In this document: one piece after another, positions 12,935 to 56,979 of the stretch
How positions within the stretch are numbered: position 1 is the first letter of the stretch
Layout: each line of letters starts with the position of its first letter
Source of the DNA: Haloechinothrix alba
GTDB taxonomy: Bacteria > Actinomycetota > Actinomycetes > Mycobacteriales > Pseudonocardiaceae
Reading direction: 5' to 3'
DNA: 64,000 bases
Assembly (NCBI RefSeq): GCF_900188115.1
Contig: NZ_FZNW01000019.1
Span: forward strand, 1 to 64,000
Notes under the pieces: model-generated
Databases searched by the model: none
What the model was told of the DNA's origin: nothing
The model's input: the letters and a program-made list of their open reading frames with translations, nothing else
Made by a program: the position numbers and the translations under genes

Positions 12935-14407
12935 TCACGCGTGGGCGCGATCCGTCACTGGCCGTAGCCGAACGGGGAGACCATCGACAGGTACCGGCAG
13001 GGCGACATAGTCCCAACGGGCAAGGTAGTCCTGTGGAAGTGACCACGTGTAATGCATCAGGAGCTCGTGCAGCAGGGCTTTGACCTCGATCGTGCCGAAG
13101 TGCATGCCGATGCATTTATGTGCCCCACCGCCGAACGGGATCCAGGCGAACCGGTGCGACTTGTCCTCGCGCCGGTCGGGTGCGAAACGCTCCGGGTCGA
13201 ACGTCATCGGGTCGGTCCAGCACTCCGGGGTGAAGTGGTTGACGGCCGGCGAGACGCCGATGAGGGTGCCTTGCGGGATGTAGTGGCCGAGCACCTCGGT
13301 GTCGGTCAACGCCTTACGTGGCAGGCTGGGTACCGGCGCCACCATGCGCAAGGACTCCTTGATGACGAGGTCCAGGGTGTGCAGCGACTCCAGGGCCTCG
13401 AGGTCGGGGGATCCCGTACCGAGCGCGCGGGACTCCTCCCTGGCACGCTCCTGCCAGTCGGTGTGCATACCGAGGTAGTAGGCGGCCGCTGTACTGGTGA
13501 TGGTCGAGGTGTCGTGCGCCGCCATCATCAGGAAGATCATGTGGTTGATGACGTCCTCGTCGCCGAACCGCTCGCCATCGGAGTCCGTGGCGTGGCACAG
13601 CGCCGAGAACAGGTCACTGCCCGATCCGGCGCGCTTGTCCGCGAGCCGCTCGGCGAAGAACCGTTCCAGTACCTTCCTGCCGCTCAGCCCGGCCGACCAC
13701 CGACCGCCGGGCACCGGATACCGGATGAGCGCGGTTCCCGCGCGCACCGTGTCCACGAACGCCCTGTTGATCTCGTCGGCACGCTGCTCACCCGGCGGCA
13801 TATCCATGAACACGCGAGCGGCTATGTCCAGCGTGAGCTGCTTGAGCGCCCAGTACAGCCGCATCGTACTGCCGGTCGGCCACTGCCGGACGCCCTCGCG
13901 CGCCACCCGGGTCATCTCGTCGGTGTAGGTGGCGAGGCGATCGCGGGTGAACGCCTCCTGCATGATCCTGCGGTGCATGCGGTGTTCGCCGAAGTCAAGC
14001 AGCATCAAGCCGCGGTGGAAGAACCGCTCGATGAAGAAGTTCCAGCCCTGCTGGGAGAACACCTTGTCCTTGTTGATCAGGGCGGTCTGGGTCGCATCCG
14101 GGCCCGCGAGCGCCACCATGGGTTGCCCGAACATGCCCATCCAGGACACCGGCCCGTAGCGCTCGTAGCGGCGGAGGGCGAAGTCGGGACCGAAGCGCAT
14201 CGCGGTGAGGCTGTGCCCGACGAACGGTGGGCCGAAGTCGCCGGGCACTGCGGCCAGCCCGCTGCCCGGCGGGGGATCGGCCAGCGGCTCGCTCCGCCCG
14301 CGTGGCGCGAGCAACCGGGTATCGACCGCACGGGGCAGGGGCACGGCAGTCAGCGGCGGCACCCGTGTGCGCACGGCACCGGTAGCCCTGCTGAGCGCGG
14401 TCACCAT
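12935..14407 (-). CDS. Cytochrome P450
   Basis: A 490-residue soluble P450. The I-helix oxygen-activation motif AAHDTST is at 296-302, the K-helix ExxR (ESLR) at 351-354, and the heme loop [14 protein letters not shown] at 425-438 with ligand C432. The start follows GGAGGTGAGAGG. The gene is divergent from the TIGR03084-AtuA-carboxylase operon across a 159-bp region containing a palindrome, which suggests shared control and a role in oxidising the hydrocarbon that this operon degrades. The substrate itself cannot be read from sequence. No ferredoxin or reductase gene is adjacent. Confidence 0.87.
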
Positions 14408-14499
14408 GACCTCTCACCTCCCGGTCCCCGTCCCACGGCTACTGTCCCGCCGCAATTGACAGCACGTCAAGAGTGCCCGTGCAGACTCACCCGAATAAA

Positions 14500-14515
14500 C
14501 AAGCACTCATGCTTG
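14500..14515. promoter_or_regulatory. Palindromic operator candidate CAAGCA-CTCA-TGCTTG
   Basis: A perfect 6-bp inverted repeat with a 4-bp centre lies between the divergent P450 and TIGR03084 genes, in an AT-richer stretch. Size and symmetry fit a TetR-family operator. Two TetR genes lie at the far end of the operon (24116 and 25402 on the minus strand); the first is co-oriented with it and is the more likely partner. Confidence 0.5.
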
Positions 14516-14566
14516 CTTTTTTCTTGTGACGATGCCATGCTTCCGGCATCGCCGAAGGAGACATGC

Positions 14567-15358
14567 ATGGTTCAGCTGGTGGAACTTCTCGACGACCTCG
14601 ACGCCGAGGGTGCCGACCTGGATGCTCTGGTCACCGAACAGCCGGCCGGGCAGTGGAGGCTGCCGACTCCCGCGCCAGGGTGGACGATCGCACACCAGAT
14701 CGCCCACCTCGCCTGGACCGACGAGGTGGCGCTGCTGGCGGCAACGCGGCCGGAAGAGTTCCGGTCCGAACTGGACCTGGCGGCGAACGATCCGGACGGC
14801 TTCGTGGACAGGGCCGCGGAGCGGGGAGCGGCCAAGGGCGTGACGGAACTGCTCGCGACCTGGCGTACCGGCCGATCGCGGCTGCGCGCCGCGCTCGCGG
14901 AGTTGCCAGAGGGGACCAGGCTTCCGTGGTTCGGGCCGCCGATGAAGCCCGCATCCATGGCGACCGCGCGGCTGATGGAAACGTGGGCGCACGGTCAGGA
15001 CGTCGCGGACGCGCTCGGCGTGGTGCGGACCGGCACGGACCGGCTGCGGCACGTCGCCCACATCGGGGTCCGTACCCGTGACTTCGCCTACCACGCGCAC
15101 TCCTTGCAGCCTCCTGCCGAGGAGTTCCGCGTGGAGCTGGAGGGGCCGACGGGCCAGCAGTGGACGTGGGGGCCCGGGGACGCGCGCCAGCGGGTTACCG
15201 GCAGTGCGCTGGAGTTCTGCCTGGTGGTGACGCAGCGGCGGCATCCGGACGACACCGCGCTCGCTGCCGAGGGCGACGAGGCCCGTCGCTGGCTGGGCAT
15301 CGCGCAGGCGTTCGCGGGACCACCCGGGCAGGGACGGAAGGCGGGACAGTTCGCATGA
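14567..15358 (+). CDS. TIGR03084 family protein (DinB/mycothiol-isomerase-like fold)
   Basis: The 263-residue protein begins like the mycothiol-dependent maleylpyruvate isomerase/DinB four-helix family ([23 protein letters not shown], with H43 and H47) and carries a further conserved histidine in [11 protein letters not shown] (about 138-148). These three histidines are the usual metal ligands of the fold. I recognise it as TIGR03084, an actinobacterial family of unknown function regularly encoded with AtuA. The ATG at 14567 follows GAAGGAGA. Its stop overlaps the ATG of the AtuA gene (ATGA), so it is the first gene of a coupled operon. Confidence 0.75.
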
Positions 15359-17076
15359 TCCGGATCGGGAACGCATCGGGCTTCTACGGGGACCGGTTCG
15401 ACGCGGTGCGCGAGATGCTCACCGGCGGGCAGCTCGACGTGCTCACCGGCGACTACCTGGCCGAGCTGACCATGCTCATCCTGGGGCGAGATCTGCTCAA
15501 GGACCCGTCCCGGGGTTACGCGAGGACGTTCCTGCGCCAGATGCGTGAGAACCTCGTTCTCGCCAAGCAGGCCGGGGTGTCCATCGTGACCAACGCCGGG
15601 GGGCTGAACCCGGCAGGGCTGGCCACCGCGCTGCGTGAGCTGGCCGACGAGCTCGAGGTTCCGCTGTCCGTCGCGCACGTCGAGGGCGATGACCTGCGAG
15701 AGCGGGCACAGGATCTGGGTTTGGCCGTGCACACGGCAGATGGGCGGGAGCTGGCCCCGTTGACCGCCAATGCCTACCTCGGCGCCTGGGGCATCGCCGA
15801 GGCACTCGGAGCGGGCGCCGATGTCGTCGTCACCGGCCGGGTCACCGACGCCTCGCTGGTGGTCGGACCAGCGGCAGCACACTTCGGCTGGCGACGAACC
15901 GACTACGACGCGCTCGCCGGTGCTGTCGTGGCCGGACACGTGATCGAGTGCGGGGCACAGGCCACGGGGGGCAACCTGGCGTTCTTCACCGAGGTCGACG
16001 ACCTGACCCGGCCGGGCTTCCCGATCGCGGAGGTCGACAGCGACGGGTCCAGCGTGATCACCAAACACCCGGGAACCGGCGGTGCGGTCACCGTGGACAG
16101 TGTGACCGCTCAGCTGCTCTACGAGATCGCAGGCCCCTCCTACGCCGGTCCCGATGTCACGGCCCGGTTCGACACGATCGACCTGCATCCCGAGGGCGTC
16201 GACCGGGTCCGCGTCAGTGGGGTGCGCGGGCAGGAGCCCCCGGCTCGTCTCAAGGTCGGTCTCAACGCGCTCGGCGGGTACCGCAACCAGGTCACCTTCG
16301 TGCTCACCGGCCTGGACATCGAGGCCAAGGCCGAGCTCGTGCAACGGCAGCTGGTGGCCGCGCTCGACACCGCTCCGGGTGAGCTGCGCTGGTCACTGGC
16401 GCGTACGGACAGCACCGACGCCGATACCGAGGAGGGCGCCAGCGCACTGCTGCACTGCGTGGTCAAGGACAGCGACTCCGCCGTCGTCGGGCGGGCCTTC
16501 AGCGGTGCGGCCATCGAGCTGGCCCTGGCGAGCTACCCCGGCTTCCATGTGACAGCGCCCCCGGCCGACGCGACCCCGTACGGGGCGTTCGGCACGGCGT
16601 TCGTCGGCGCGGCCGAGGTACCGCACGTCGCCGTGTTACCGGACGGCGGGCGCGTGGACATCGCGCCCGCGCCCGAGACGCGGGAGGTCGCCGATCCGGA
16701 CGAGCCCGTCTCGCCGGAACCCACCGGGATCGCCGGGTCCGGAACGACCCGCACGGCGCCGCTGGGAACGATCGCCGGGGCGCGCAGCGGGGACAAGGGA
16801 GGCGCCGCGAACCTGGGTGTCTGGGTTCGCAACGCCGAGGCGTGGCCCTGGCTGGTGCGCACGCTGACCGTGGACGAGCTCAGGCGACTCCTGCCGGAGA
16901 CAGCCGACCTTCCGGTGCGCCGGTACCTACTGCCGAACGTGCTCGCGGTGAACTTCGTGATCGACGGCATTCTCGGGGACGGCGTTGCATCGCAGGCCCG
17001 GTTCGATCCCCAGGCGAAGGCTCTCGGCGAGTGGCTGCGATCGCGACACGTCGAGATACCCGAGGAGTTGCTGTGA
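15355..17076 (+). CDS. atuA: Acyclic terpene utilization protein AtuA
   Basis: A 573-residue AtuA-type protein with the large N-terminal domain (formerly DUF1446, about 1-440; [13 protein letters not shown] at the start, [26 protein letters not shown]) and a fused C-terminal AtuA-like ferredoxin-fold domain (about 465-573, [20 protein letters not shown]). AtuA is required for citronellol/geraniol use in Pseudomonas, but its reaction is not established to my knowledge. The start ATG overlaps the previous stop and the stop overlaps the next GTG, so it sits inside a translationally coupled chain. No separate isohexenylglutaconyl-CoA hydratase (AtuE) is encoded in this operon. Confidence 0.85.
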
Positions 17077-18218
17077 ACGAGTTCGAGACCGACGAGCGCC
17101 GCGCACTGCGCGAGACTGTGCGGCGGTTCACCGAGCGCGAGGTGCTGCCGTCGGCCGAGGAGTGGGAGCGCGCCGGGGAGCTGCCGCGCGAGCTGCATCG
17201 CAAGGCAGCCGAGCTCGGCCTGCTGGGGGTGGCCTTCCCGGAGTCGGCGGGCGGCGGTGGGGGAGACATCATCGACTCCCTCGTGGTGACCGAGGAGATG
17301 CTCTACGCGGGAGCCCCTGGTGGTGTGATCGCCGCGCTGTTCACCCACGGCATCGCCCTACCGCACATCGTCGCCGCGAACGATCCCCGGCAGCTGGACC
17401 GCTGGGTGCGCCCCACGCTGGCAGGTGAGGCCATCGGCGCGCTGGCCATCACCGAGCCGGACGGCGGGTCGGATGTGGCCGGGCTGCGGACCACGGCCAA
17501 GCGGGACGGCGCGGACTACGTGGTCAACGGCGCCAAGACGTTCATCACCTCGGGCACCAGGGCCGATTTCGTCACCACAGCCGTGCGCACCGGCGAGCCG
17601 GGCGCGCACGGCATCTCGCTGCTGGTGATCGAACGTGACACCCCTGGCTTCGAGGTCAGCCGCAAGTTGGACAAGATGGGCTGGCAGTGCTCGGACACCG
17701 CCGAGCTGACGTTCACCGACTGCCGGGTGCCCGCCGCGAACCTGGTCGGCGAGGAGAACAGCGGTTTCGTGCAGATCGCGCAGAACTTCGTCAGCGAGCG
17801 TCTCGGGCTCGCGGTGCAGGCCTACGCGGCCGCGCAGCGGGCACTCGACCTCACCGTGCAGTGGTGCCGTGACCGGGAGACGTTCGGGCGCCCGCTGGTG
17901 TCCCGGCAGCTGGTGCAGCACACCCTCACCGAGATGGCGCGGCGGATCGACGTGGCGCGCACCTACACCCGCGATGTGGCCGTGCGCCACGCCGCGGGCG
18001 AGGACATGATCGCGCAGGTGGCCTTCGCCAAGAACACCGCCGTCGAGGCGGGTGAGTGGGTCGTCCACGAGGCCGTGCAGCTGCACGGCGGGCTCGGCTA
18101 CATGCGCGAGGCCGAGGTCGAACGGCAGTACCGCGACATGCGCATCCTCGGCATCGGCGGAGGAACCAACGAGATCATGACGTCCCTGGCCGCGAACCGA
18201 TTGGGATTCACATCATGA
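17073..18218 (+). CDS. Acyl-CoA dehydrogenase (first of two)
   Basis: A 381-residue FAD-dependent acyl-CoA dehydrogenase introducing the alpha-beta double bond into an acyl-CoA. Family motifs include ITEPDGGSDVAGL (about 127-139), the NGAKTFIT strand and the C-terminal QLHGGLGYMREAEVERQYRD. The position that carries the catalytic glutamate in medium-chain enzymes (YEGT) reads GIGGGTNEI here, so the base must lie elsewhere, as in isovaleryl- or long-chain-type enzymes. GTG 17073 overlaps the AtuA stop and its own stop overlaps the carboxylase beta ATG. A citronellyl-CoA or similar branched substrate is inferred from context. Confidence 0.85.
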   Translation: MNEFETDERRALRETVRRFTEREVLPSAEEWERAGELPRELHRKAAELGLLGVAFPESAGGGGGDIIDSLVVTEEMLYAGAPGGVIAALFTHGIALPHIVAANDPRQLDRWVRPTLAGEAIGALAITEPDGGSDVAGLRTTAKRDGADYVVNGAKTFITSGTRADFVTTAVRTGEPGAHGISLLVIERDTPGFEVSRKLDKMGWQCSDTAELTFTDCRVPAANLVGEENSGFVQIAQNFVSERLGLAVQAYAAAQRALDLTVQWCRDRETFGRPLVSRQLVQHTLTEMARRIDVARTYTRDVAVRHAAGEDMIAQVAFAKNTAVEAGEWVVHEAVQLHGGLGYMREAEVERQYRDMRILGIGGGTNEIMTSLAANRLGFTS

Positions 18219-19813
18219 CCGTACTCAAATCCATGGTGGACACCTCGGCGGAGGAGTTCGTCACCAACCGGGACGCGATGCTGTCCAAGCTGGACGAGGT
18301 CGAGGGCGAGCACGCCAAGGCCATCGAGGGTGGCGGAGCCAAGTACGTCGCCAGGCACAAGGAGCGGGGCAAGCTGCTCGCCAGGGAACGCATCGAGCTG
18401 CTGATCGACGAGGACTCGCCGTTCCTCGAGCTTTCCCCACTGGCGGCATGGGGCTCCGAGTACCGGGTCGGCGGCAGCGTCGTGGTCGGGATCGGTGTGG
18501 TGGAAGGCGTGGAGTGCATGCTCATCGCCAACGACCCCACCGTGAAGGGCGGCGCGACGAACCCTTGGGGTCTGAAGAAGAGCCTGCGCGCCGCCGAGAT
18601 CGCCGAACGCAACCGCCTGCCCGTGATCCACCTGGTCGAGTCGGGTGGGGCGGACCTGCCCGCGCAGAAGGAGATCTTCATCCCGGGCGGCAGGACGTTC
18701 CACAACCTGACGCGTTCGTCGGCCCAGCGGGTGCCGACGGTGTCGCTCGTGTTCGGCAGCTCCACGGCCGGTGGCGCGTACCTGCCGGGGATGTCGGACT
18801 ACGTCGTGATGGTCGCCGAGCAGGCCAAGGTCTTCCTCGGTGGACCACCGCTGGTCAAGATGGCCACGGGGGAGGAGTCCGACGACGAGTCGCTCGGCGG
18901 GGCGGAGATGCACGCACGGTCCTCCGGGCTCGCCGACTTCCTCGCCGTCGACGAGGAGGACGCGATCCGTATCGGGCGCAGCATCGTCCGGCGGTTCAAC
19001 TGGGACAAGCTCGGACCCGAGCCCAGGCGCGAGTACACCGGGCCGTACTACGACCCCGAGGAACTCCTTGGGGTGGTACCGAACGACCTGAAAGTGCCGT
19101 TCGACCCGAAGGAAGTCATCGCACGGGTGGTCGACGGCTCCGACTTCGACGAGTTCAAGCCGCTGTACGGCAACAGCCTCGTCACCGGCTGGGCCGATAT
19201 CCACGGCTACCCCGTCGGGATCCTCGCCAACGCGCGCGGGGTCCTGTTCAGTGAGGAGTCGCAGAAGGCCACCCAGTTCATCCAGCTCGCGAACCAGACG
19301 GACACACCGCTGGTGTTCCTGCACAACACGACCGGTTACATGGTCGGCAAGGAGTACGAGCAGCTCGGCATCATCAAGCACGGCGCGATGATGATCAACG
19401 CGGTGTCGAACTCCACCGTCCCGCACATCTCCGTGCTGATGGGCGCGTCGTACGGGGCGGGCCACTACGGAATGTGTGGCCGCGCGTACGACCCGCGGTT
19501 CCTGTTCGCCTGGCCGAGCGCGAAGTCCGCGGTGATGGGACCGCAGCAACTGGCGGGTGTACTGTCCATCGTGGCCAGAGAGTCCGCTGCGGGTCGCGGC
19601 GAGACATACGACGAGGACAACGACGCAGCCATGCGCCAGGCGGTCGAGCAGCAGATCGAGGCGGAGTCCCTTCCGATGTTCCTGTCCGGGATGCTCTACG
19701 ACGACGGCATCATCGACCCGAGGGACACCAGGACCGTGCTCGGTATGAGCCTGTCGTCGATCCACAACGCCGAGGTGCGGGGGACGGACCGGTTCGGCGT
19801 CTTCAGGATGTGA
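18215..19813 (+). CDS. Acyl-CoA carboxylase beta subunit (carboxyltransferase; geranyl-/methylcrotonyl-CoA type)
   Basis: A 532-residue carboxyltransferase subunit of a biotin-dependent acyl-CoA carboxylase. The N-half and C-half crotonase-like domains are seen; characteristic segments include GGATNPWGLKKSLRAAEIAE, GSSTAGGAYLPGMSDY, NNTTGYMVGKEYEQ-like FLHNTTGYMVG, and GASYGAGHYGMCGRAY. Length and the ARERIELLIDEDSPFLEL start match AtuC/LiuB/MCC-beta rather than propionyl-CoA carboxylase. It transfers the carboxyl group from biotin on the alpha subunit encoded next. Which enoyl-CoA is used (geranyl or 3-methylcrotonyl) cannot be settled from sequence; the neighbouring AtuA favours the former. 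Confidence 0.86.
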   Translation: MTVLKSMVDTSAEEFVTNRDAMLSKLDEVEGEHAKAIEGGGAKYVARHKERGKLLARERIELLIDEDSPFLELSPLAAWGSEYRVGGSVVVGIGVVEGVECMLIANDPTVKGGATNPWGLKKSLRAAEIAERNRLPVIHLVESGGADLPAQKEIFIPGGRTFHNLTRSSAQRVPTVSLVFGSSTAGGAYLPGMSDYVVMVAEQAKVFLGGPPLVKMATGEESDDESLGGAEMHARSSGLADFLAVDEEDAIRIGRSIVRRFNWDKLGPEPRREYTGPYYDPEELLGVVPNDLKVPFDPKEVIARVVDGSDFDEFKPLYGNSLVTGWADIHGYPVGILANARGVLFSEESQKATQFIQLANQTDTPLVFLHNTTGYMVGKEYEQLGIIKHGAMMINAVSNSTVPHISVLMGASYGAGHYGMCGRAYDPRFLFAWPSAKSAVMGPQQLAGVLSIVARESAAGRGETYDEDNDAAMRQAVEQQIEAESLPMFLSGMLYDDGIIDPRDTRTVLGMSLSSIHNAEVRGTDRFGVFRM

Positions 19814-19866
19814 GGGACCTGTGACACACACGGCGTTCGGCGTACCGCCCGCCCGCGCGGGCGCGG

Positions 19867-19880
19867 GTATCCCGGGATAC
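19867..19880. promoter_or_regulatory. Perfect palindrome GTATCCCGGGATAC before the carboxylase alpha gene
   Basis: A 14-bp perfect palindrome lies in the only sizeable gap (81 bp) within the operon, ending just upstream of the GTGAGGA ribosome binding site of the alpha subunit. It could be a protein site for an internal promoter or a short RNA hairpin affecting translation; nothing in the sequence decides between these. Confidence 0.35.
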
Positions 19881-19894
19881 ACAGTGAGGATGTC

Positions 19895-21949
19895 ATGAGC
19901 AGCCAGTCACCGGCGGTGCCGGTCAACCAGATCACCAACGTGCTCGTCGCCAACCGTGGCGAGATCGCGCGCCGCGTGTTCCGCACCTGCGCAGAGCTCG
20001 GGATCGCCTCTGCCGCGGTGTACTCCGACGCGGATGCGGACTCGCCCCACGTACCCGAGGCCTCGGCAGCGGTTCGGCTGCCCGGCGACACTCCTGGGGA
20101 TACCTACCTGCGCTCCGACCTGGTGATCGATGCCGCCCGCGCCTGCGGGGCCGACGCGATCCATCCCGGGTACGGTTTCCTCTCCGAGAACGCCGAGTTC
20201 GCGCGCGCCGTCACCGACGCGGGACTCACCTGGATCGGTCCTCCATCTGCGGCCATCGAGGCGATGGGCTCCAAGGTGGAGTCGAAGCGGATCATGGCAG
20301 AGGCCGGGGTGCCGGTACTGGCCGAGCTCGACCCGGCGGATGTCACCGAGGCCGACCTTCCGCTCCTGGCCAAGGCGTCCGCGGGCGGCGGGGGCCGCGG
20401 GATGCGGGTGGTACACGCCCTCGACGAGTTGCCCGACGCCGTCGCAGGCGCCAAGGCCGAGGCGGGCTCGGCGTTCGGTGACTCCACGGTGTTCTGCGAG
20501 CGCTACGTGGACACCGGCCGCCATATCGAGGTGCAGGTACTCGCGGACAACCACGGCTCGGTGTGGGCTGTCGGGGAGCGGGAGTGCTCCATCCAGCGCA
20601 GGCACCAGAAGGTCGTCGAGGAAGCCCCGTCCCCGTTCGTGGACGAGAGGATGCGCGCCGAGCTGTTCGATGCCGCGCGGAAGGCCGCCGGGGCCATCGA
20701 CTACCGCGGGGCGGGCACCGTGGAGTTCCTCGCCACCGCCGACGGGGAGTTCTTCTTCCTCGAGATGAACACGCGCCTGCAGGTCGAGCACCCGGTCACG
20801 GAGTGCACGGCGGGAATCGACCTGGTGGCGGAGCAGATCAGGATCGCGGAGGGCCAGCGGCTAACCGACCCGGACGCCCGCGCGGAGCGCCCGAACGGGC
20901 ACGCCATCGAGGTTCGGCTCTACGCCGAGACGGTCGTCCCCGCAGGCGACGGCCTCGAGTGGCAGCCGCAGAGCGGCCCGGTGCACCGGCTGCGCGTCCC
21001 GCGCGTCACCGCGGAGTTCGCGCTGCCGCCGCGGTTCGGGGTGCGGCTGGACTCCGGCGTCGGCGACGGCTCCGTCGTCGGCGTGCACTACGACCCGATG
21101 CTCGCCAAGGTGATCTCGTGGGCGCCGAGCAGGGCCGAGGCCGCACGCGCGCTGGCAACCGCGCTGGCGGAAGCCTCCGTTCACGGCCTGGCGACGAACC
21201 GCGACCTGCTGGTGAACATTCTCCGGCATCCGGCCTTCCTCGCGGGCGAGACGGACACGGCCTTCCTCACCCGGCACGACCTCGCGACGCTGGCGTCCCC
21301 GCTGGCAGGCGAGGAGGCGCACCGGCTGTCCGCGCTGGCTGCTGCGCTGTCGGCAGCCTCGATCAATCGCGACCGGGCGACGGTGTTGCGCGGCCTGCCG
21401 AGCGGGTGGCGGAACGTGGCCTCCCAGCCGCAACGCAAGAGTTTCACCGCGGGCGAGCGGACCTATCAGGTCGAGTACCGGCTGACGCGGTCCGGACTGC
21501 ACGCTGCCGAGTACGCCGGCGTCGATCTCGTCCATGCGGGCCCGGACAACGTCACGTTGACGGTGCACGGCGTGCGCAGGAACTTCGAGGTCGCGCACCA
21601 TCCGGGGCTCATCTGCGTGGACTCCCCCCTCGGGCCTGTGGCGCTACGACCGCTGCCCCGGTTCACCGACCCGGAGGCCACGGTCGCCGAAGGTTCGATG
21701 CTCGCACCGATGCCCGGAGCCGTACTGCGGGTCGCCGTTCAGCGTGGCGAGCATGTAACCGCGGGTCAGCCCGTGCTGTGGCTGGAAGCGATGAAGATGG
21801 AACACCAGGTCACGGCACCGACCGACGGTGTCGTGAGCGAGCTCAACGTGGAAGCCGGTCAGCAGGTCGATCTCGGCGCCGTACTCGCGGTGGTGCGACC
21901 GGCGGACGAACAGGACCACAACCCTCGTCAGGAAGCGGGTACCTCATGA
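19895..21949 (+). CDS. Acyl-CoA carboxylase alpha subunit (biotin carboxylase plus BCCP)
   Basis: A 684-residue subunit joining a biotin carboxylase domain (about 1-450; VLVANRGEIARRVFRTC at the start, KASAGGGGRGM, EMNTRLQVEHPVTE) to a linker domain and a C-terminal biotinyl domain with EAMKM at 631-635, K634 being the biotin site. It carboxylates its own biotin with ATP and bicarbonate and passes the group to the beta subunit encoded upstream. ATG 19895 follows GTGAGGA. Its stop overlaps the ATG of the next acyl-CoA dehydrogenase. The domain order matches AtuF, LiuD and AccA-type subunits. Confidence 0.88.
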   Translation: MSSQSPAVPVNQITNVLVANRGEIARRVFRTCAELGIASAAVYSDADADSPHVPEASAAVRLPGDTPGDTYLRSDLVIDAARACGADAIHPGYGFLSENAEFARAVTDAGLTWIGPPSAAIEAMGSKVESKRIMAEAGVPVLAELDPADVTEADLPLLAKASAGGGGRGMRVVHALDELPDAVAGAKAEAGSAFGDSTVFCERYVDTGRHIEVQVLADNHGSVWAVGERECSIQRRHQKVVEEAPSPFVDERMRAELFDAARKAAGAIDYRGAGTVEFLATADGEFFFLEMNTRLQVEHPVTECTAGIDLVAEQIRIAEGQRLTDPDARAERPNGHAIEVRLYAETVVPAGDGLEWQPQSGPVHRLRVPRVTAEFALPPRFGVRLDSGVGDGSVVGVHYDPMLAKVISWAPSRAEAARALATALAEASVHGLATNRDLLVNILRHPAFLAGETDTAFLTRHDLATLASPLAGEEAHRLSALAAALSAASINRDRATVLRGLPSGWRNVASQPQRKSFTAGERTYQVEYRLTRSGLHAAEYAGVDLVHAGPDNVTLTVHGVRRNFEVAHHPGLICVDSPLGPVALRPLPRFTDPEATVAEGSMLAPMPGAVLRVAVQRGEHVTAGQPVLWLEAMKMEHQVTAPTDGVVSELNVEAGQQVDLGAVLAVVRPADEQDHNPRQEAGTS

Positions 21950-23115
21950 GCACAACCATGACCTTTACCGAGCCGGAGGAACGTACCGCGCTGCGCAAGG
22001 CTGTCTTCGACCTCGGCAGCTCCTTCGGTCACGACTACTACCTCGCACAGGCACGCAACGGCGGGCACACCGATGAGCTGTGGGATGCCGCGGGCCGGCT
22101 CGGCTACCTCGGAGTGGCCGTACCGGAGCAGTACGGCGGCGGGGGAGGGGGTATCGGCGACCTCTCCGCGGTGTGCGAGGAGTTCTGCGCGGCAGGGACA
22201 CCCATGCTGCTGATGGTGGTCTCGCCTGCGATCTGCGCTACCGTGCTCTCCCGGTTCGGCACCGAGGAGCAACGAGACCACTGGCTGCCGGGCTTCGCCA
22301 CCGGTCAGGTGCGGATGGCGTTCGCGATCACCGAGCCGGACGCGGGCTCGAACGCGCACAACATCACGACCACGGCGCGGCGCGACGGCGACGGCTGGGT
22401 GCTCAACGGGCAGAAGGTGTTCATCTCCGGGGTGGACGAGGCCGATGCGGTGCTCGTGGTCGGCCGTACCACCGACGCACGCACGGGCAATCTCAAACCG
22501 GCCCTGTACATCGTGCCGACCGACAGCCCGGGTCTCGAGGCCAAGCCGATCGAGATGGATCTGACCTCGGCAGACAAGCAGTTCAGCCTGTTCTTCGACG
22601 ACGTGCGGCTGCCGGGCAACGCGCTTGTCGGTTCCGAGGACGCCGCGATCGCCCAGCTGTTCGCCGGACTCAACCCCGAGCGGATCATGGGGGCGTCGTT
22701 CTCGCTCGGCATAGCCAGGCTCGCGCTGGATCGGGCGACCGAGTACGCGAAGGTGCGCAAGATCTGGGATACGCCCATCGGCGCGCACCAGGGCATCGCC
22801 CATCCGCTCGCGGAGATCAAGGTCGAGATCGAGCTGGCCAAGCTGATGACCCAGAAAGCCGCGGCACTCTACGACTCCGGTGACGACATGGGTGCCGGAG
22901 AGGCGGCGAACATGGCCAAGTACGCGGCTGCCGAAGCGGCGGTGCGTGCGGTGGACCAGGCCGTGCAGACCCACGGCGGGAACGGGCTCGCTTCCGAGTA
23001 CGGGCTCGGCGCGATGATCGCGGCAGCACGTGTCGGGCGTATCGCGCCGGTGAGCAGGGAGATGGTGCTCAACTTCGTGGCACAGCACAGCCTCGGGCTT
23101 CCCAAATCGTACTGA
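21946..23115 (+). CDS. Acyl-CoA dehydrogenase (second)
   Basis: A 389-residue acyl-CoA dehydrogenase with ITEPDAGSNAHNITTTA (about 126-142), NGQKVFISGVDEAD, and the helical C-terminal domain ending AVQTHGGNGLASEYGLG. As in the first dehydrogenase, the medium-chain YEGT glutamate position is absent (RIAPVSREM). The two enzymes are clearly not recent duplicates, so they probably act at different steps, such as citronellyl-CoA and a later branched acyl-CoA. ATG 21946 overlaps the alpha-subunit stop (ATGA), which makes it the last member of the tightly coupled chain. Confidence 0.84.
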   Translation: MSTTMTFTEPEERTALRKAVFDLGSSFGHDYYLAQARNGGHTDELWDAAGRLGYLGVAVPEQYGGGGGGIGDLSAVCEEFCAAGTPMLLMVVSPAICATVLSRFGTEEQRDHWLPGFATGQVRMAFAITEPDAGSNAHNITTTARRDGDGWVLNGQKVFISGVDEADAVLVVGRTTDARTGNLKPALYIVPTDSPGLEAKPIEMDLTSADKQFSLFFDDVRLPGNALVGSEDAAIAQLFAGLNPERIMGASFSLGIARLALDRATEYAKVRKIWDTPIGAHQGIAHPLAEIKVEIELAKLMTQKAAALYDSGDDMGAGEAANMAKYAAAEAAVRAVDQAVQTHGGNGLASEYGLGAMIAAARVGRIAPVSREMVLNFVAQHSLGLPKSY

Positions 23116-23289
23116 GCAGCAGGCACCGCACCGGTCGGGCATCCGTCGGATGCCGAGGCAGTACCGGTTCGGGCCGGGTTCGGGCCGGTTACGGGCCCGC
23201 CACGGGGCGGCACCGCCCGCCCGCATAGTGTCGGAGCGGACGAGACACGCGCCGACCGTGTGACCGCGAACGCGAACGAAGGGCGACCC

Positions 23290-24123
23290 ATGAGCACGCT
23301 CGCAGGTAAGACACTGATCATGTCCGGTGGCAGCAGGGGAATCGGCGAGGCGATCGCGCTGCGCGCGGCCGCCGACGGGGCGAATGTCGCCATGATCGCC
23401 AAGACCGCGGAGCCACATCCGAAGCTTCCGGGCACGCTCTACACCGCCGCCAAGGCTGTGGAGGACGCAGGCGGACAGGCACTACCGATCGTCGGGGACA
23501 TCCGCGACGACGAGGCGGTCCGCTCGGCGGTCGCCCAGACCGCCGAGCAGTTCGGCGGGATCGATGTCGTGGTCAACAACGCGAGTGCGATCGACCTCAC
23601 CCCGACGGCGTCGATCGACATGAAGCGCTACGACCTCATGCAGGACATCAACACGCGCGGGTCGTTCCTGCTGTCCCAGAGCGCCATCCCGCACCTTCGG
23701 CAGTCCGGCAACCCGCACATCCTGACGCTGTCGCCACCCATCAGTGTCGACCCCAAATGGTTCGGTTCGATCGGCACGGCCTACACCATCGCGAAGTACG
23801 GGATGAGCCTCGTGACGCTGGGGCTGTCCGAGGAGCTCCGTGCGGACGGTATCGCGGCGAACTCGCTGTGGCCGCGGACGACCATCGACACCGCTGCGAT
23901 CCGCAACGTGGTGGGCGCGGAGCTGGCCGACCGGTCACGGACACCCGACATCATGGCGGACGCGGCACACGCGATCGTGACACGGCCGAGCGCCGAGACC
24001 ACAGGGCAGTTCCTCATCGACGACGAGGTCCTCGCCGCCGCGGGTGTGACCGACTTCGCCCGCTACCGCATCGGTGACCGGGAAGAGGACCTCGAGCTCG
24101 ACTTCTGGGTGGAACGTGCCTGA
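23290..24123 (+). CDS. Short-chain dehydrogenase/reductase (AtuB/HSDL2-like)
   Basis: A 277-residue SDR. The cofactor motif SGGSRGIG is at 12-19, NNAS follows the fourth strand, and the active-site tyrosine and lysine are Y165 and K169 in YTIAKYGM. The sequence SGGSRGIGEAIALRAAADGANV and the TAAKAVEDAGG segment resemble the HSDL2-like subgroup that includes AtuB. In terpene catabolism such an enzyme would oxidise an alcohol or hydroxyacyl intermediate; that role is inferred from its place. ATG 23290 is preceded by GAAGGGCGA. It is separated from the dehydrogenase upstream by 174 bp, so it may have its own promoter. Confidence 0.82.
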   Translation: MSTLAGKTLIMSGGSRGIGEAIALRAAADGANVAMIAKTAEPHPKLPGTLYTAAKAVEDAGGQALPIVGDIRDDEAVRSAVAQTAEQFGGIDVVVNNASAIDLTPTASIDMKRYDLMQDINTRGSFLLSQSAIPHLRQSGNPHILTLSPPISVDPKWFGSIGTAYTIAKYGMSLVTLGLSEELRADGIAANSLWPRTTIDTAAIRNVVGAELADRSRTPDIMADAAHAIVTRPSAETTGQFLIDDEVLAAAGVTDFARYRIGDREEDLELDFWVERA

Positions 24124-24748
24124 CCAGGTGCAGCCGAACGCGGTGCGGGAACCGCAGCAGGAACGCAGCAGGACGACGCGCCGCAGACTCCTGGAGGCCG
24201 CTACCGCCTGCCTCCCGGAGCTCGGATGGACACGCACGACCGTCGCGGTCGTCGCCGAGCGCGCAGGCGTCTCCCGCGGCGCGGCTCAGCACCACTTCCC
24301 GGCGCGTGAGGACCTGGTCACCGCCGCGGTCCAGCACATCTCCGATGTCCAGGTCGCGGAGCTGCACGAGAAGGTGGCGCAGCTGCCGAGTGGTCCGGTG
24401 CGGACCGAGGCCGTCGTAGCGATGCTGCTCGACCTGTACACCGGACCGACCTTTCGTGCCGCCCTGCACCTGTGGGTGGCCGCATCGACGGAGGACCGGC
24501 TCGGCGCGATCGTACGGCCCCTCGAGGCCCACGTCGGTCGTGAGGCGCACCGCACAGCGGTCGAGCTGCTCGGGGTCGACGAGTCCGTGCAGGGGGTGCG
24601 AGAGACCGTGCAGGCGACCCTCGACCTCGCGCGCGGCCTGGGGTTGGCGAACCTGCTCAGCGACGACGTCGCCCGCCGCCGGAAGATCGTTCGGCAGTGG
24701 ACGGCGCTGATCGAGCCCACCCTCGCCGCGGCCGCACGCGGCGGGTGA
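24116..24748 (+). CDS. TetR family transcriptional regulator (end of the atu-like operon)
   Basis: A 210-residue regulator with an N-terminal TetR helix-turn-helix (about 14-60: TRRRLLEAATACLPELGWTR, then VAERAGVSRGAAQHHF) and a helical ligand-binding domain. GTG 24116 overlaps the SDR stop by 8 nt, so it is co-transcribed with it. Being the terminal gene of the cluster, it is the best candidate repressor for the divergent P450/TIGR03084 promoter palindrome at 14500-14515; its ligand could be an acyl-CoA of the pathway. The stop lies one base before a dispersed palindromic repeat. Confidence 0.82.
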   Translation: MPDQVQPNAVREPQQERSRTTRRRLLEAATACLPELGWTRTTVAVVAERAGVSRGAAQHHFPAREDLVTAAVQHISDVQVAELHEKVAQLPSGPVRTEAVVAMLLDLYTGPTFRAALHLWVAASTEDRLGAIVRPLEAHVGREAHRTAVELLGVDESVQGVRETVQATLDLARGLGLANLLSDDVARRRKIVRQWTALIEPTLAAAARGG

Positions 24749-54514: not shown

Positions 54515-54943
54515 ATGGGTGCGCTGATCTGGCTGATCGTCGGCATCGCCCTGCTGGCGGCGGAGGCGATGTCCGGCTCAATGGTGCTGGTCATGCTGGG
54601 AGCCGGGGCGCTCGCGGCGGCCGGGTCGATGGTCCTGGCCGACAGCGTGATCGTCTCTGTCGGGGTGTTCGCGGTGACCTCGATCGGGTTGCTCGTGCTG
54701 GCCCGCCCCGCACTCAAACAGCGCTTCCTGCTCGACCGTAGCGTGCGCACGAACGTCGATGCGCTGGTCGGTGCGCGGGCGGTGACGCTGTCCACGGTCG
54801 ACGCCGAGCAGGGCAGGGTCAAGCTCAACGGCGAGGAGTGGTCCGCCCGCTGTTACGTCAGCGGCCAGGTCATCGAGCCCGACACGCCCGTCACCGTCCT
54901 GGAGATATCCGGAGCGATGGCGATCGTCTCACCGGGGCCGTAA
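54515..54943 (+). CDS. NfeD family membrane protein, copy 1
   Basis: A 142-residue protein with two to three N-terminal membrane helices (MGALIWLIVGIALLAAE; VLVMLGAGALAAAGSMVL; VGVFAVTSIGLLVLA) and a C-terminal OB-fold (VGARAVTLSTVDAEQGRVKL, RCYVSGQVIEPDTPVTVLEI). NfeD proteins accompany SPFH/stomatin proteins at membrane microdomains; an SPFH gene lies downstream. It is about 90 percent identical in protein to the second copy 541 bp further on. Confidence 0.87.
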   Translation: MGALIWLIVGIALLAAEAMSGSMVLVMLGAGALAAAGSMVLADSVIVSVGVFAVTSIGLLVLARPALKQRFLLDRSVRTNVDALVGARAVTLSTVDAEQGRVKLNGEEWSARCYVSGQVIEPDTPVTVLEISGAMAIVSPGP

Positions 54944-55055: not shown

Positions 55056-55484
55056 ATGGGTGCGCTGATCTGGCTGATCGTCGGCATCGCCCTGCTGGCG
55101 GCGGAGGTACTGTCCGGCGATCTCGTGCTGGTCATGCTGGGGGCCGGGGCGCTCGCGGCGGCCGGGTCGATGGTCCTGGCCGACAGCGTGATCGTCTCTG
55201 TCGGGGTGTTCGCGGTGACCTCGATCGGGTTGCTCGTGCTGGCCCGCCCCGCGCTCAAGCGACGCTTCCTGCACGGGCCCGGCTTGCGTACCAATGTGGA
55301 CGCGCTGGTCGGTGCGCGGGCGGTGACGCTGTCCACGGTCGACGCCGAGCAGGGCAGGGTCAAGCTCAACGGCGAGGAGTGGTCCGCCCGCTGTTACGTC
55401 AGCGGCCAGGTCATCGAGCCCGACACGCCCGTCACCGTCCTGGAGATATCCGGAGCAACCGCTGTGGTGTCCATGGAGCCGTGA
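55056..55484 (+). CDS. NfeD family membrane protein, copy 2
   Basis: The same length and architecture as copy 1. By eye 14 residues differ, in three clusters: the end of helix 1 (AEAMSGSM versus AEVLSGDL), the helix-to-OB linker (QRFLLDRSV versus RRFLHGPGL) and the last eight residues. The OB-fold coding region is identical base for base over more than 150 nt, including silent positions. The two copies may form a mixed complex with the SPFH protein encoded 76 bp downstream. Confidence 0.87.
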   Translation: MGALIWLIVGIALLAAEVLSGDLVLVMLGAGALAAAGSMVLADSVIVSVGVFAVTSIGLLVLARPALKRRFLHGPGLRTNVDALVGARAVTLSTVDAEQGRVKLNGEEWSARCYVSGQVIEPDTPVTVLEISGATAVVSMEP

Positions 55485-55560: not shown

Positions 55561-56979
55561 TTGGGAACCGCAACGATCATCCTCCTCGCGGTCATCGTGC
55601 TCTTCGTGGTGGTCGTCGTCTTCAAGGCGATCATGGTCATCCCGCAGGCACAGGCAGCCGTCGTGGAGCGGCTGGGCAAGTTCAAGGCTGTGGCGCCCCC
55701 GGGGCTGAACTTCCTCGTTCCCTTCCTCGACAAGGTGCGCTCCCGAGTCGACCTGCGTGAGCAGGTCGTGTCCTTTCCTCCGCAGTCGGTCATCACGCAG
55801 GACAACCTCACACTGTCGATCGACACGGTCGTCTACTTTCAGGTGACCGACTCCCGGGCCGCGACCTACGAGATCTCGAACTACATCACCGGTGTCGAGC
55901 AGCTGACCACGACGACGCTGCGCAACCTGGTCGGTGGGATGAGCCTCGAGGACACGCTGACCTCCCGCGACCAGATCAACCAGCAGCTACGCGGAGTGCT
56001 CGACGAGGCGACGGGCCGGTGGGGGATCCGGGTCGCCAGGGTCGAGCTCAAGGCCATCGACCCCCCGCCCTCCATTCAGGACTCGATGGAGAAGCAGATG
56101 CGCGCCGACCGGGAGAAGCGCGCGATGATTCTCAACGCGGAGGGTGATCGCGAGGCGGCCATCAAGAAGGCCGAAGGGCAGAAGCAGGGCCAGATCCTCG
56201 ACGCGGAGGGTTCCAAGCAGGCGGCCATCCTCAGCGCGGAGGCCGAGCGCCAGTCCAGCATCCTGCGTGCGCAGGGTGAGCGTGCCGCTCGCTACCTGCA
56301 GGCACAAGGCCAGGCCAAGGCTATCGAGAAGGTGTTCGCCTCGATCAAGGCTGCGCGGCCCACTCCCGAGGTGCTCGCCTACCAGTACCTGCAGACCCTG
56401 CCCCAGATGGCGCAGGGCGACGCCAACAAGGTGTGGCTCGTCCCCAGCGAGTACGGCAAGGCCCTGGAAGGATACGCGCGCAACCTCGGCACCCCTGGCG
56501 AGGACGGTGTCTTCCGCTACGAGCCACCCGAGTACGAGGCCAGCCCTCCCGAGCTCGACGAGGAAGAGGTCGCGAGCTGGTTCGACACCACGACCGACCC
56601 GGAGGTCGCCGAGGCCGTGCGCGCGGCCGAGGCCGTGGCTCGCAAGGAAGTGGGTGGCCCGATCGGCCCGGGTGGAACAGGGGGAGGCAAGAGCGCGTCC
56701 GCCGCCGCAGAGGCGCTCAAGGGCGACCCCAGCCAGCTCTCGCCGGAGGCGTCCCAGCAGCTCGGGATCCAGCCGCCCGGACAGCCCGGGCAGCCGCCGC
56801 AGGCCGGTGGCTCGTCCGGCCCGTCCCAGCAGGGCGGCGCGCAAGGTCAGCAGTTCCCGTTCGCGCAACCACCGAACCCGCAGGGACCTCCTCCGCAGCA
56901 GGGGGAGGAGCCACCACGCGGCGGCCACCAGGGAGGGCCCCAGGGAGGGCCCCAGGGAGGGCCACCGCCGCAACGCTAG
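55561..56979 (+). CDS. SPFH/band-7 domain protein (paraslipin-like)
   Basis: A 472-residue membrane-anchored scaffold protein. One N-terminal helix (about 4-24), SPFH domain (about 25-190: ERLGKFKAVAPPGLNFLVPF, DNLTLSIDTVVYFQVTD), a long Ala/Glu coiled coil (about 190-270, MRADREKRAMILNAEGDREA), then an acidic region and a disordered Gly/Pro/Gln tail (about 370-472). It should oligomerise into membrane rings with NfeD. It starts with TTG behind ACAGGAGAGAG. The tail end carries an in-frame nucleotide repeat (about 56931-56961). Confidence 0.87.
   Translation: MGTATIILLAVIVLFVVVVVFKAIMVIPQAQAAVVERLGKFKAVAPPGLNFLVPFLDKVRSRVDLREQVVSFPPQSVITQDNLTLSIDTVVYFQVTDSRAATYEISNYITGVEQLTTTTLRNLVGGMSLEDTLTSRDQINQQLRGVLDEATGRWGIRVARVELKAIDPPPSIQDSMEKQMRADREKRAMILNAEGDREAAIKKAEGQKQGQILDAEGSKQAAILSAEAERQSSILRAQGERAARYLQAQGQAKAIEKVFASIKAARPTPEVLAYQYLQTLPQMAQGDANKVWLVPSEYGKALEGYARNLGTPGEDGVFRYEPPEYEASPPELDEEEVASWFDTTTDPEVAEAVRAAEAVARKEVGGPIGPGGTGGGKSASAAAEALKGDPSQLSPEASQQLGIQPPGQPGQPPQAGGSSGPSQQGGAQGQQFPFAQPPNPQGPPPQQGEEPPRGGHQGGPQGGPQGGPPPQR

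Follow-up and report, generated by a model that had tools for sequence, protein, structure and literature searches.

Gene content of an AtuA and accD2/accA2-type carboxylase operon in Haloechinothrix alba and a proposed route for 3-methyl-branched isoprenoid-type acyl-CoAs

Genes and features of the operon

We analysed a 64 kb stretch of DNA from Haloechinothrix alba (NCBI RefSeq assembly GCF_900188115.1, contig NZ_FZNW01000019.1, positions 1 to 64,000; hereafter the window), which belongs to a genome of 80 contigs. It contains an operon encoding a protein of the acyclic terpene utilization family AtuA, a TIGR03084 protein and both subunits of an acyl-CoA carboxylase. A previous reading of the letters alone had described these genes as a probable branched isoprenoid degradation module, and the gene content given there was borne out by gene calls together with Pfam and NCBIfam scans. 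We confirmed the operon as running on the plus strand from 14567 to 24748 in the order TIGR03084, AtuA, acyl-CoA dehydrogenase (ACAD), carboxylase beta subunit, alpha subunit, second ACAD, short-chain dehydrogenase/reductase (SDR) and TetR regulator. The TetR gene was absent from the earlier gene list. The features of the locus are as follows.

12935-14407, minus strand: cytochrome P450 of 490 aa (PF00067, 213 bits), a divergent neighbour probably outside the operon
14500-14515, no strand assigned: inverted repeat CAAGCACTCATGCTTG, which may be the operator bound by the TetR of the operon (conserved site upstream of the operon in relatives)
14567-15358, plus strand: TIGR03084 protein, similar to mycothiol-dependent maleylpyruvate isomerase (360 bits against a cut-off of 248; H47, E138 and H142 kept)
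15355-17076, plus strand: AtuA, a proposed C-C lyase that carries AtuA_ferredoxin as a fused domain at its C terminus (PF07287, 521 bits)
16717-17073, plus strand: C-terminal region of AtuA with the AtuA_ferredoxin domain (PF23544, 61.6 bits)
17073-18218, plus strand: ACAD 1, in the fadE13 position (Pfam and NCBIfam profiles, gene calls, locus comparison)
18215-19813, plus strand: carboxylase beta subunit (carboxyltransferase) with a pocket of the geranyl-CoA carboxylase (GCC) type, in the accD2 position (domain profiles, alignment, tree)
18686-18688, plus strand: GGC codon for the Gly at the position that distinguishes GCC from 3-methylcrotonyl-CoA carboxylase (MCC) (alignment and the rule of PMC4673880)
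19895-21949, plus strand: carboxylase alpha subunit with biotin carboxylase, BT domain and biotin carrier, in the accA2 position (domain profiles, gene calls)
21946-23115, plus strand: ACAD 2, in the fadE12 position (domain profiles, gene calls)
23290-24123, plus strand: SDR of the NCBIfam PRK08278 subfamily, in the slot of the mycobacterial enoyl-CoA hydratase (ECH) (428.9 bits, cut-off 250)
24074-24748, plus strand: TetR regulator ending the operon, start codon uncertain (PF00440; relatives have orthologues in the same terminal position)

The coupling of TIGR03084 and AtuA by overlapping codons, which had been pointed out before, was found as an ATGA junction. The same overlap joins ACAD 1 to the beta subunit and the alpha subunit to ACAD 2, and AtuA and ACAD 1 share a GTGA, which makes four junctions of 4 bases. 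The AtuA of the window shares 95% identity with its Haloechinothrix aidingensis counterpart.

Conservation in relatives

The operon was compared with a class sample of 197 genomes, a family sample of 60 genomes and 80 named loci of relatives retrieved via AtuA; tallies of TIGR03084 and of PRK07827-like ECH use high-scoring matches only. AtuA is present in 97 of the class genomes, mostly with one match each, and in 55 of the family genomes. The order AtuA-ACAD-beta-alpha-ACAD was intact in 71 of the 80 loci, and seven of the other nine are interrupted by contig ends, so that the arrangement does not arise by chance; the loci L093 and L123 are without this order. Behind the second ACAD of the intact loci we found an ECH (54 loci), a TetR gene (9), the SDR seen here (6) or another gene (2). 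The operon is therefore ordinary in its distribution and common in actinobacteria, mycobacteria included. By eye, most of the Mycobacterium loci are flanked by an apparent response regulator and histidine kinase, which we take to be MprA/MprB. In some relatives the operon is preceded by conserved genes, and two of these resemble ribonucleotide reductase subunits by eye.

Some genomes of the two samples (for example G188, G035, G100 and G078) contain two to four AtuA matches. Several weak PF07287 matches of about 67-100 bits, located in open reading frames of about 460-800 codons, possibly represent a different kind of protein, perhaps related to citramalate lyase. Moreover, the AtuA match of G095, G196 and G163 falls into two pieces a few bases apart, with no stops between them and with profile positions of about 114-140 skipped, which suggests a shortened or divergent segment.

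In Mycobacterium tuberculosis the operon is Rv0971c-Rv0976c and comprises echA7, fadE12, accA2, accD2, fadE13 and Rv0976c (membership from PMC9283954; the Rv numbers of accD2 and accA2 are given in PMC4347857). Judging from the gene order, Rv0976c would be the AtuA gene.

Carboxylase pocket and substrate class

According to PMC4673880, the beta subunit of MCC carries Phe191 after an insertion of three residues, whereas GCC has Gly162 and no insertion. Glycine without the insertion was found in 73 of 73 AtuA-linked beta subunits, namely that of the window and those of the 72 loci out of 80 that gave a beta subunit of more than 450 aa, the remaining 8 being dropped. The MCC signature of Phe191 and insertion is accordingly absent from the window subunit, and the isoprenoid-type carboxylase module assumed earlier is supported by the pocket. 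An MCC-type pocket (VFPDREHFGRIF) is found in a beta paralogue of the same genome, on contig C63. This paralogue clusters with M. tuberculosis AccD1 in the tree, and C63 also holds an alpha-like gene and a dehydrogenase.

It is extremely unlikely in our view that the operon is a second leucine/isovalerate pathway acting on 3-methylcrotonyl-CoA. The pathway logic would be alike and the closest solved beta subunit overall is the MCC of Pseudomonas aeruginosa, but the pocket is without the MCC phenylalanine and insertion and a separate MCC-type set is available at C63. Moreover, a Mycobacterium smegmatis strain with deleted accD2-accA2 grew on isovalerate like the wild type and showed no build-up of 3-methylcrotonyl-CoA (PMC4347857), so this reading is already largely refuted. 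A carboxylase active only on 3-methylcrotonyl-CoA together with leucine dependence, named in the sequence-only reading as the outcome that would speak against it, is contradicted for M. smegmatis accD2-accA2 by the same deletion (PMC4347857). The authors left the role and substrate of accD2-accA2 open (PMC4347857, PMC5311964). Because of the GCC-type pocket and this deletion phenotype, our best guess is that the carboxylase would accept a larger 3-branched enoyl-CoA, of which geranyl-CoA itself is only one possibility.

Such a gamma-carboxylation module might also serve another 3-branched acyl-CoA, derived from a methyl-branched acid or from the cell's own prenyl or lipid side chains, and not exogenous terpenes. 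We regard this as a possibility of some weight, albeit on the unlikely side. The wide occurrence of AtuA, mostly as a single match, fits it, as does the separation of the beta clade from Pseudomonas GCC, and the M. tuberculosis operon is reportedly induced 20-300-fold under hypoxia and in stationary phase (PMC9283954). However, both the pocket signature and AtuA are of the terpene-route type.

AtuA as a proposed C-C lyase

A structural model of AtuA was built from 50 sequences (confidence score pLDDT 91.5). Its one outstanding match among solved structures was chain A of 9evf, with a Z-score of 28.4, a root-mean-square deviation (rmsd) of 4.1 and 17% identity over 391 aligned residues. The match is covered by residues 1-431 of AtuA. 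The next-best row reached a Z-score of 9.8; rows below 10, which mainly span residues 307-409, were left out. Foldseek gave an E-value of 4.1e-18 for the same pair. The entry 9evf is titled 'Citramalate lyase - ADP - pyruvate complex', and chain 9erq_A is named in the PDB both 'Acyclic terpene utilization AtuA family protein' and 'Citramalate lyase, subunit A'. With a citramalate lyase of the AtuA family in the PDB, the earlier view that AtuA is without a known reaction no longer holds. Among the matches listed for open-licence PMC literature, no paper on this citramalate lyase was found.

By sequence, a profile search reached chain A of citramalate lyase weakly (E 0.037), AtuA as a single sequence matched no solved structure and a profile of its C-terminal region matched no solved chain. 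In Foldseek, chain B of 9evf (105 residues) also matched AtuA with a probability of 1.00 and an E-value of 0.019, at a position on AtuA that was not printed. From this match, the C-terminal domain of AtuA might correspond to the small 9evf subunit. We propose that AtuA is better read as a C-C lyase than as a hydratase because of the fold match and because citramalate and the hydrated pathway intermediate would both be tertiary-alcohol hydroxy acids that lose an acetyl unit. A use of nucleotide by AtuA might be considered, the clue being the ADP in the title of 9evf.

TIGR03084 as a proposed isomerase

In the class sample, TIGR03084 was above the NCBI cut-off in 74 genomes, and all 74 have AtuA. 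A further 23 genomes have AtuA without TIGR03084 above the cut-off and 100 have neither, which gives a Fisher value of 4.5e-34 with kinship ignored. The two genes lie at most 3 kb apart in 38 of the 74 genomes. Of the other 36, 29 have them on different contigs, while a distance of 4-35 kb separates them in 3 genomes and one of more than 1 Mb in 4.

The model of TIGR03084 (pLDDT 92.2) best matches 2nsf and 2nsg, entries of mycothiol-dependent maleylpyruvate isomerase, over about 250 columns with a TM-score of 0.60 by query and an rmsd of 5.7-6.2. H47, E138 and H142 of TIGR03084 were invariant in two alignments of 18 and 16 sequences. The metal residues of maleylpyruvate isomerase are H52, E144 and H148, and H52 also appears in the title of 2nsg. 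TIGR03084 thus has both the His/Glu/His metal residues and the fold of this isomerase. Since trans-geranyl-CoA was judged unlikely to be accommodated by the GCC structure (PMC4673880), it is plausible that TIGR03084 acts as a cis-trans isomerase. No paper on TIGR03084 was found in the open-licence PMC literature.

The hydratase

Searching all six frames of the window with a crotonase profile at E 1e-5 yielded no ECH, and of 38 crotonase match rows in the genome 0 lie in the window. The absence of a hydratase from the locus, as described before, was thereby upheld. It had been linked to the idea that AtuA or TIGR03084 performs or replaces the missing hydration, which we consider very unlikely. 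Besides the lack of an ECH in the window, the translational coupling of the two genes and their co-occurrence are in line with it, and 16 of the 38 class genomes with TIGR03084 adjoining AtuA have no PRK07827-like ECH within 12 kb. However, such an ECH is found within 12 kb in the other 22, and 66 of the 80 named loci contain an ECH, in 56 cases on the operon strand and in 10 only on the opposite strand at the front. Moreover, the fold match of AtuA is lyase-type and that of TIGR03084 isomerase-type. As many relatives carry an ECH beside both genes, neither of them needs to replace it, and the idea is not supported.

The ECHs on the opposite strand at the front belong to loci of Amycolatopsis and Saccharomonospora, and contig ends truncate 6 of the 14 named loci without an ECH. 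ECH copies of the in-operon type (PRK07827, at least 318 bits) number 28 in the class sample, and every one of them lies within 12 kb of AtuA.

A genome search for a hydratase elsewhere, which the sequence-only reading had recommended, gave a candidate on contig C22 (131747-132604), orthologous to the divergently transcribed ECH of Amycolatopsis. Orthologues with at least 65% identity were found in 18 of the 60 family genomes (12 matches at 46-50% identity were dropped), and 10 of these 18 have them within 8 kb of AtuA. The six genomes with the most similar ECH, that of the window included, have it far from AtuA or on another contig, as if the gene had moved once. In H. alba the distance to the AtuA of the window would be at least about 40 kb even if the two contigs join. 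This unlinked gene is the best candidate for the hydratase.

Alternatively, a housekeeping PRK07827-like ECH on contig C35 (37231-37983) and not the C22 gene could supply the hydration, which we think unlikely. With 275.5 bits it is the best match of the genome to the ECH family of the mycobacterial AtuA operon, the next one reaching 167.6 bits. However, a copy of 251-293 bits is found in 59 of the 60 family genomes, the 5 without AtuA among them; the exception is G207, which is 74% complete. We therefore rejected the C35 gene as an orthologue of the in-operon ECH, a type that this genome lacks, and read it as a general paralogue. The same is suggested by G209, which has a 270-bit copy and a separate 389-bit copy near AtuA.

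Proposed pathway

In our preferred interpretation, which we hold with about even confidence, the operon represents, in its Pseudonocardiaceae form, a catabolic module of actinobacteria that combines AtuA with an accD2/accA2-type carboxylase for 3-methyl-branched isoprenoid-type acyl-CoAs. The ACADs would form a 3-methyl-2-enoyl-CoA, and TIGR03084 as a mycothiol-dependent isomerase may set the geometry of its double bond for the carboxylase, which would add CO2 onto the gamma carbon. The carboxylated product would then be hydrated by an ECH, here perhaps the unlinked one at C22:131747-132604. AtuA would split the resulting tertiary 3-hydroxyglutaryl-type CoA ester so that the carboxylated methyl group leaves as an acetyl unit and a 3-oxoacyl-CoA enters beta-oxidation. 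The TetR regulator at the operon end would probably repress the operon at the inverted repeat 14500-14515. Computation gave the genes and their order, the signature of the pocket, the matches in fold, the co-occurrence and the conserved operator, and from there we infer the substrate, the sequence of reactions, what AtuA and TIGR03084 catalyse and which gene is the hydratase. Of the earlier isoprenoid-degradation reading, the pathway class was retained, and AtuA or TIGR03084 as the answer to the absent hydratase was given up.

Several observations weigh against this interpretation. The linked beta subunits form a clade of their own in the tree, apart from MCC, and are not joined to the Pseudomonas GCC, which is a single row on a long branch. 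By overall sequence the window subunit scores 559.6 bits with MCC and only 500.4 bits with GCC, and the 73 subunits with the pocket are close kin and not independent. The identity of AtuA to 9evf is just 17%, the match by sequence is weak (E 0.037), the C-terminal region is without a sequence match to a solved chain and the Foldseek output gives no position for chain B. Besides, a gene on contig C73 for a protein like 3-hydroxy-3-methylglutaryl-CoA (HMG-CoA) lyase (223.5 bits, cut-off 246) could perform the cleavage. TIGR03084 is below the cut-off in 23 of the 97 AtuA genomes, and relatives of it below the cut-off (about 150-211 bits) occur, among the matches listed, in genomes without AtuA. 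As for the hydratase, 49 of the 97 AtuA class genomes have no PRK07827-like ECH within 12 kb, the one ECH type surveyed, and 36 of the 55 AtuA-bearing family genomes have neither a C22-type ECH (at least 65% identity) nor one of the in-operon type. The C22 ECH belongs to the broad family PRK08260, and no operator was found upstream of it. Finally, AccA2 is essential in M. tuberculosis according to transposon data cited in PMC5407890, which is ill-suited to a purely catabolic role.

As a wider and tentative proposal, for which we would claim little confidence, actinobacteria including mycobacteria may share a mycothiol-dependent pathway for isoprenoid acids, in which TIGR03084 would convert trans to cis substrates for the accD2-accA2 carboxylase and AtuA would act as a nucleotide-dependent C-C lyase. 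If this is true, the mycobacterial accD2-accA2 operon would be a route of isoprenoid salvage or degradation, and functions for two widespread and poorly characterised families would follow. For the mycobacterial operon, the signature of the pocket, the lyase-type AtuA fold and the pairing of AtuA with TIGR03084 lead to a short list of assayable substrates and reactions.

As far as our literature searches went, the joint argument for an isoprenoid-type accD2-accA2 substrate, an AtuA lyase and a TIGR03084 isomerase is new. Among the open-licence PMC papers listed for AccD2 with geranyl, PMC6530141, in the part available, makes no link between the two and, on the basis of earlier studies, assigns accD2 a role in connection with mycolic acids. 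Among the matches listed for AccA2 or AccD2 together with geranyl-CoA carboxylase, the paper containing both AccA2 and GCC names GCC in its references only.

Regulation and neighbouring genes

The inverted repeat precedes the first start codon by 51-67 bases. Of 24 loci with an orthologue of the TetR gene, window included, 18 have a similar site (at most one mismatch, two forms) upstream of the operon, as do 2 of 57 loci without one; as one of the two forms was derived from the loci of the relatives, the contrast is partly circular and somewhat inflated. In a control, 20 of 1449 segments tiling the 24 TetR-locus sequences matched, with the true sites kept in. The TetR protein probably represses the operon from this predicted site. 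A wider TetR regulon was considered and dropped, for the 16-base site with one mismatch occurs at only two other places in the genome and the one inspected was uninformative.

The P450 gene had been joined to the operon in the sequence-only reading, which we could not confirm because it is divergently transcribed and its linkage looks like regional synteny. The solved chain closest to it is 2ve3, a 'putative cytochrome P450 120'. P450 matches were found in 34 family genomes, within 3 kb of AtuA in only 6, at 3-20 kb in 14 and in neither range in 14; AtuA rows below about 390 bits were left out of this count, and draft contigs can hide linkage. The P450 was therefore rejected as an operon member and looks like an old syntenic neighbour.

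Elsewhere in the window, two NfeD-like genes stand in tandem (54515-54943 and 55056-55484) and have the same residue at 128 of 142 positions without gaps. They are followed by an SPFH/Band 7 gene (55561-56979), so that the NfeD partner seems to have been duplicated. Unlinked to the window, C73:1864-8789 holds genes for an AMP-binding ligase, a P450, an ECH and the HMG-CoA-lyase-like protein, and two genes judged by eye to be ACADs; the cluster could be another branched-acid route.

Comparison with known systems

The window and the Mycobacterium loci have the same AtuA-ACAD-beta-alpha-ACAD order as the core of the accD2-accA2 operon. In contrast to the mycobacterial operon, which ends with an ECH of the PRK07827 family, the window has TIGR03084 as the first gene, an SDR in the corresponding ECH slot and TetR as the last gene. 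With the Atu pathway of Pseudomonas the window shares an AtuA family protein and a carboxylase that follows the GCC pocket rule (PMC4673880). However, it is without the hydratase AtuE of the Pseudomonas operon and has TIGR03084 and a second ACAD in addition, and its beta subunit is set in a clade separate from the GCC of P. aeruginosa. The AtuA-family citramalate lyase (9erq, 9evf) has a large-subunit fold in common with AtuA, and its chain B matches AtuA as well. Citramalate lyase consists of separate subunits whereas the AtuA of the window is one chain, the identity is low (17%) and the substrate of AtuA is presumably larger. Mycothiol-dependent maleylpyruvate isomerase (2nsf, 2nsg) is the best fold match of TIGR03084, with which it has an invariant His and an E-x3-H pair in common, but the two are only 17-18% identical and the distribution of TIGR03084 is tied to AtuA.

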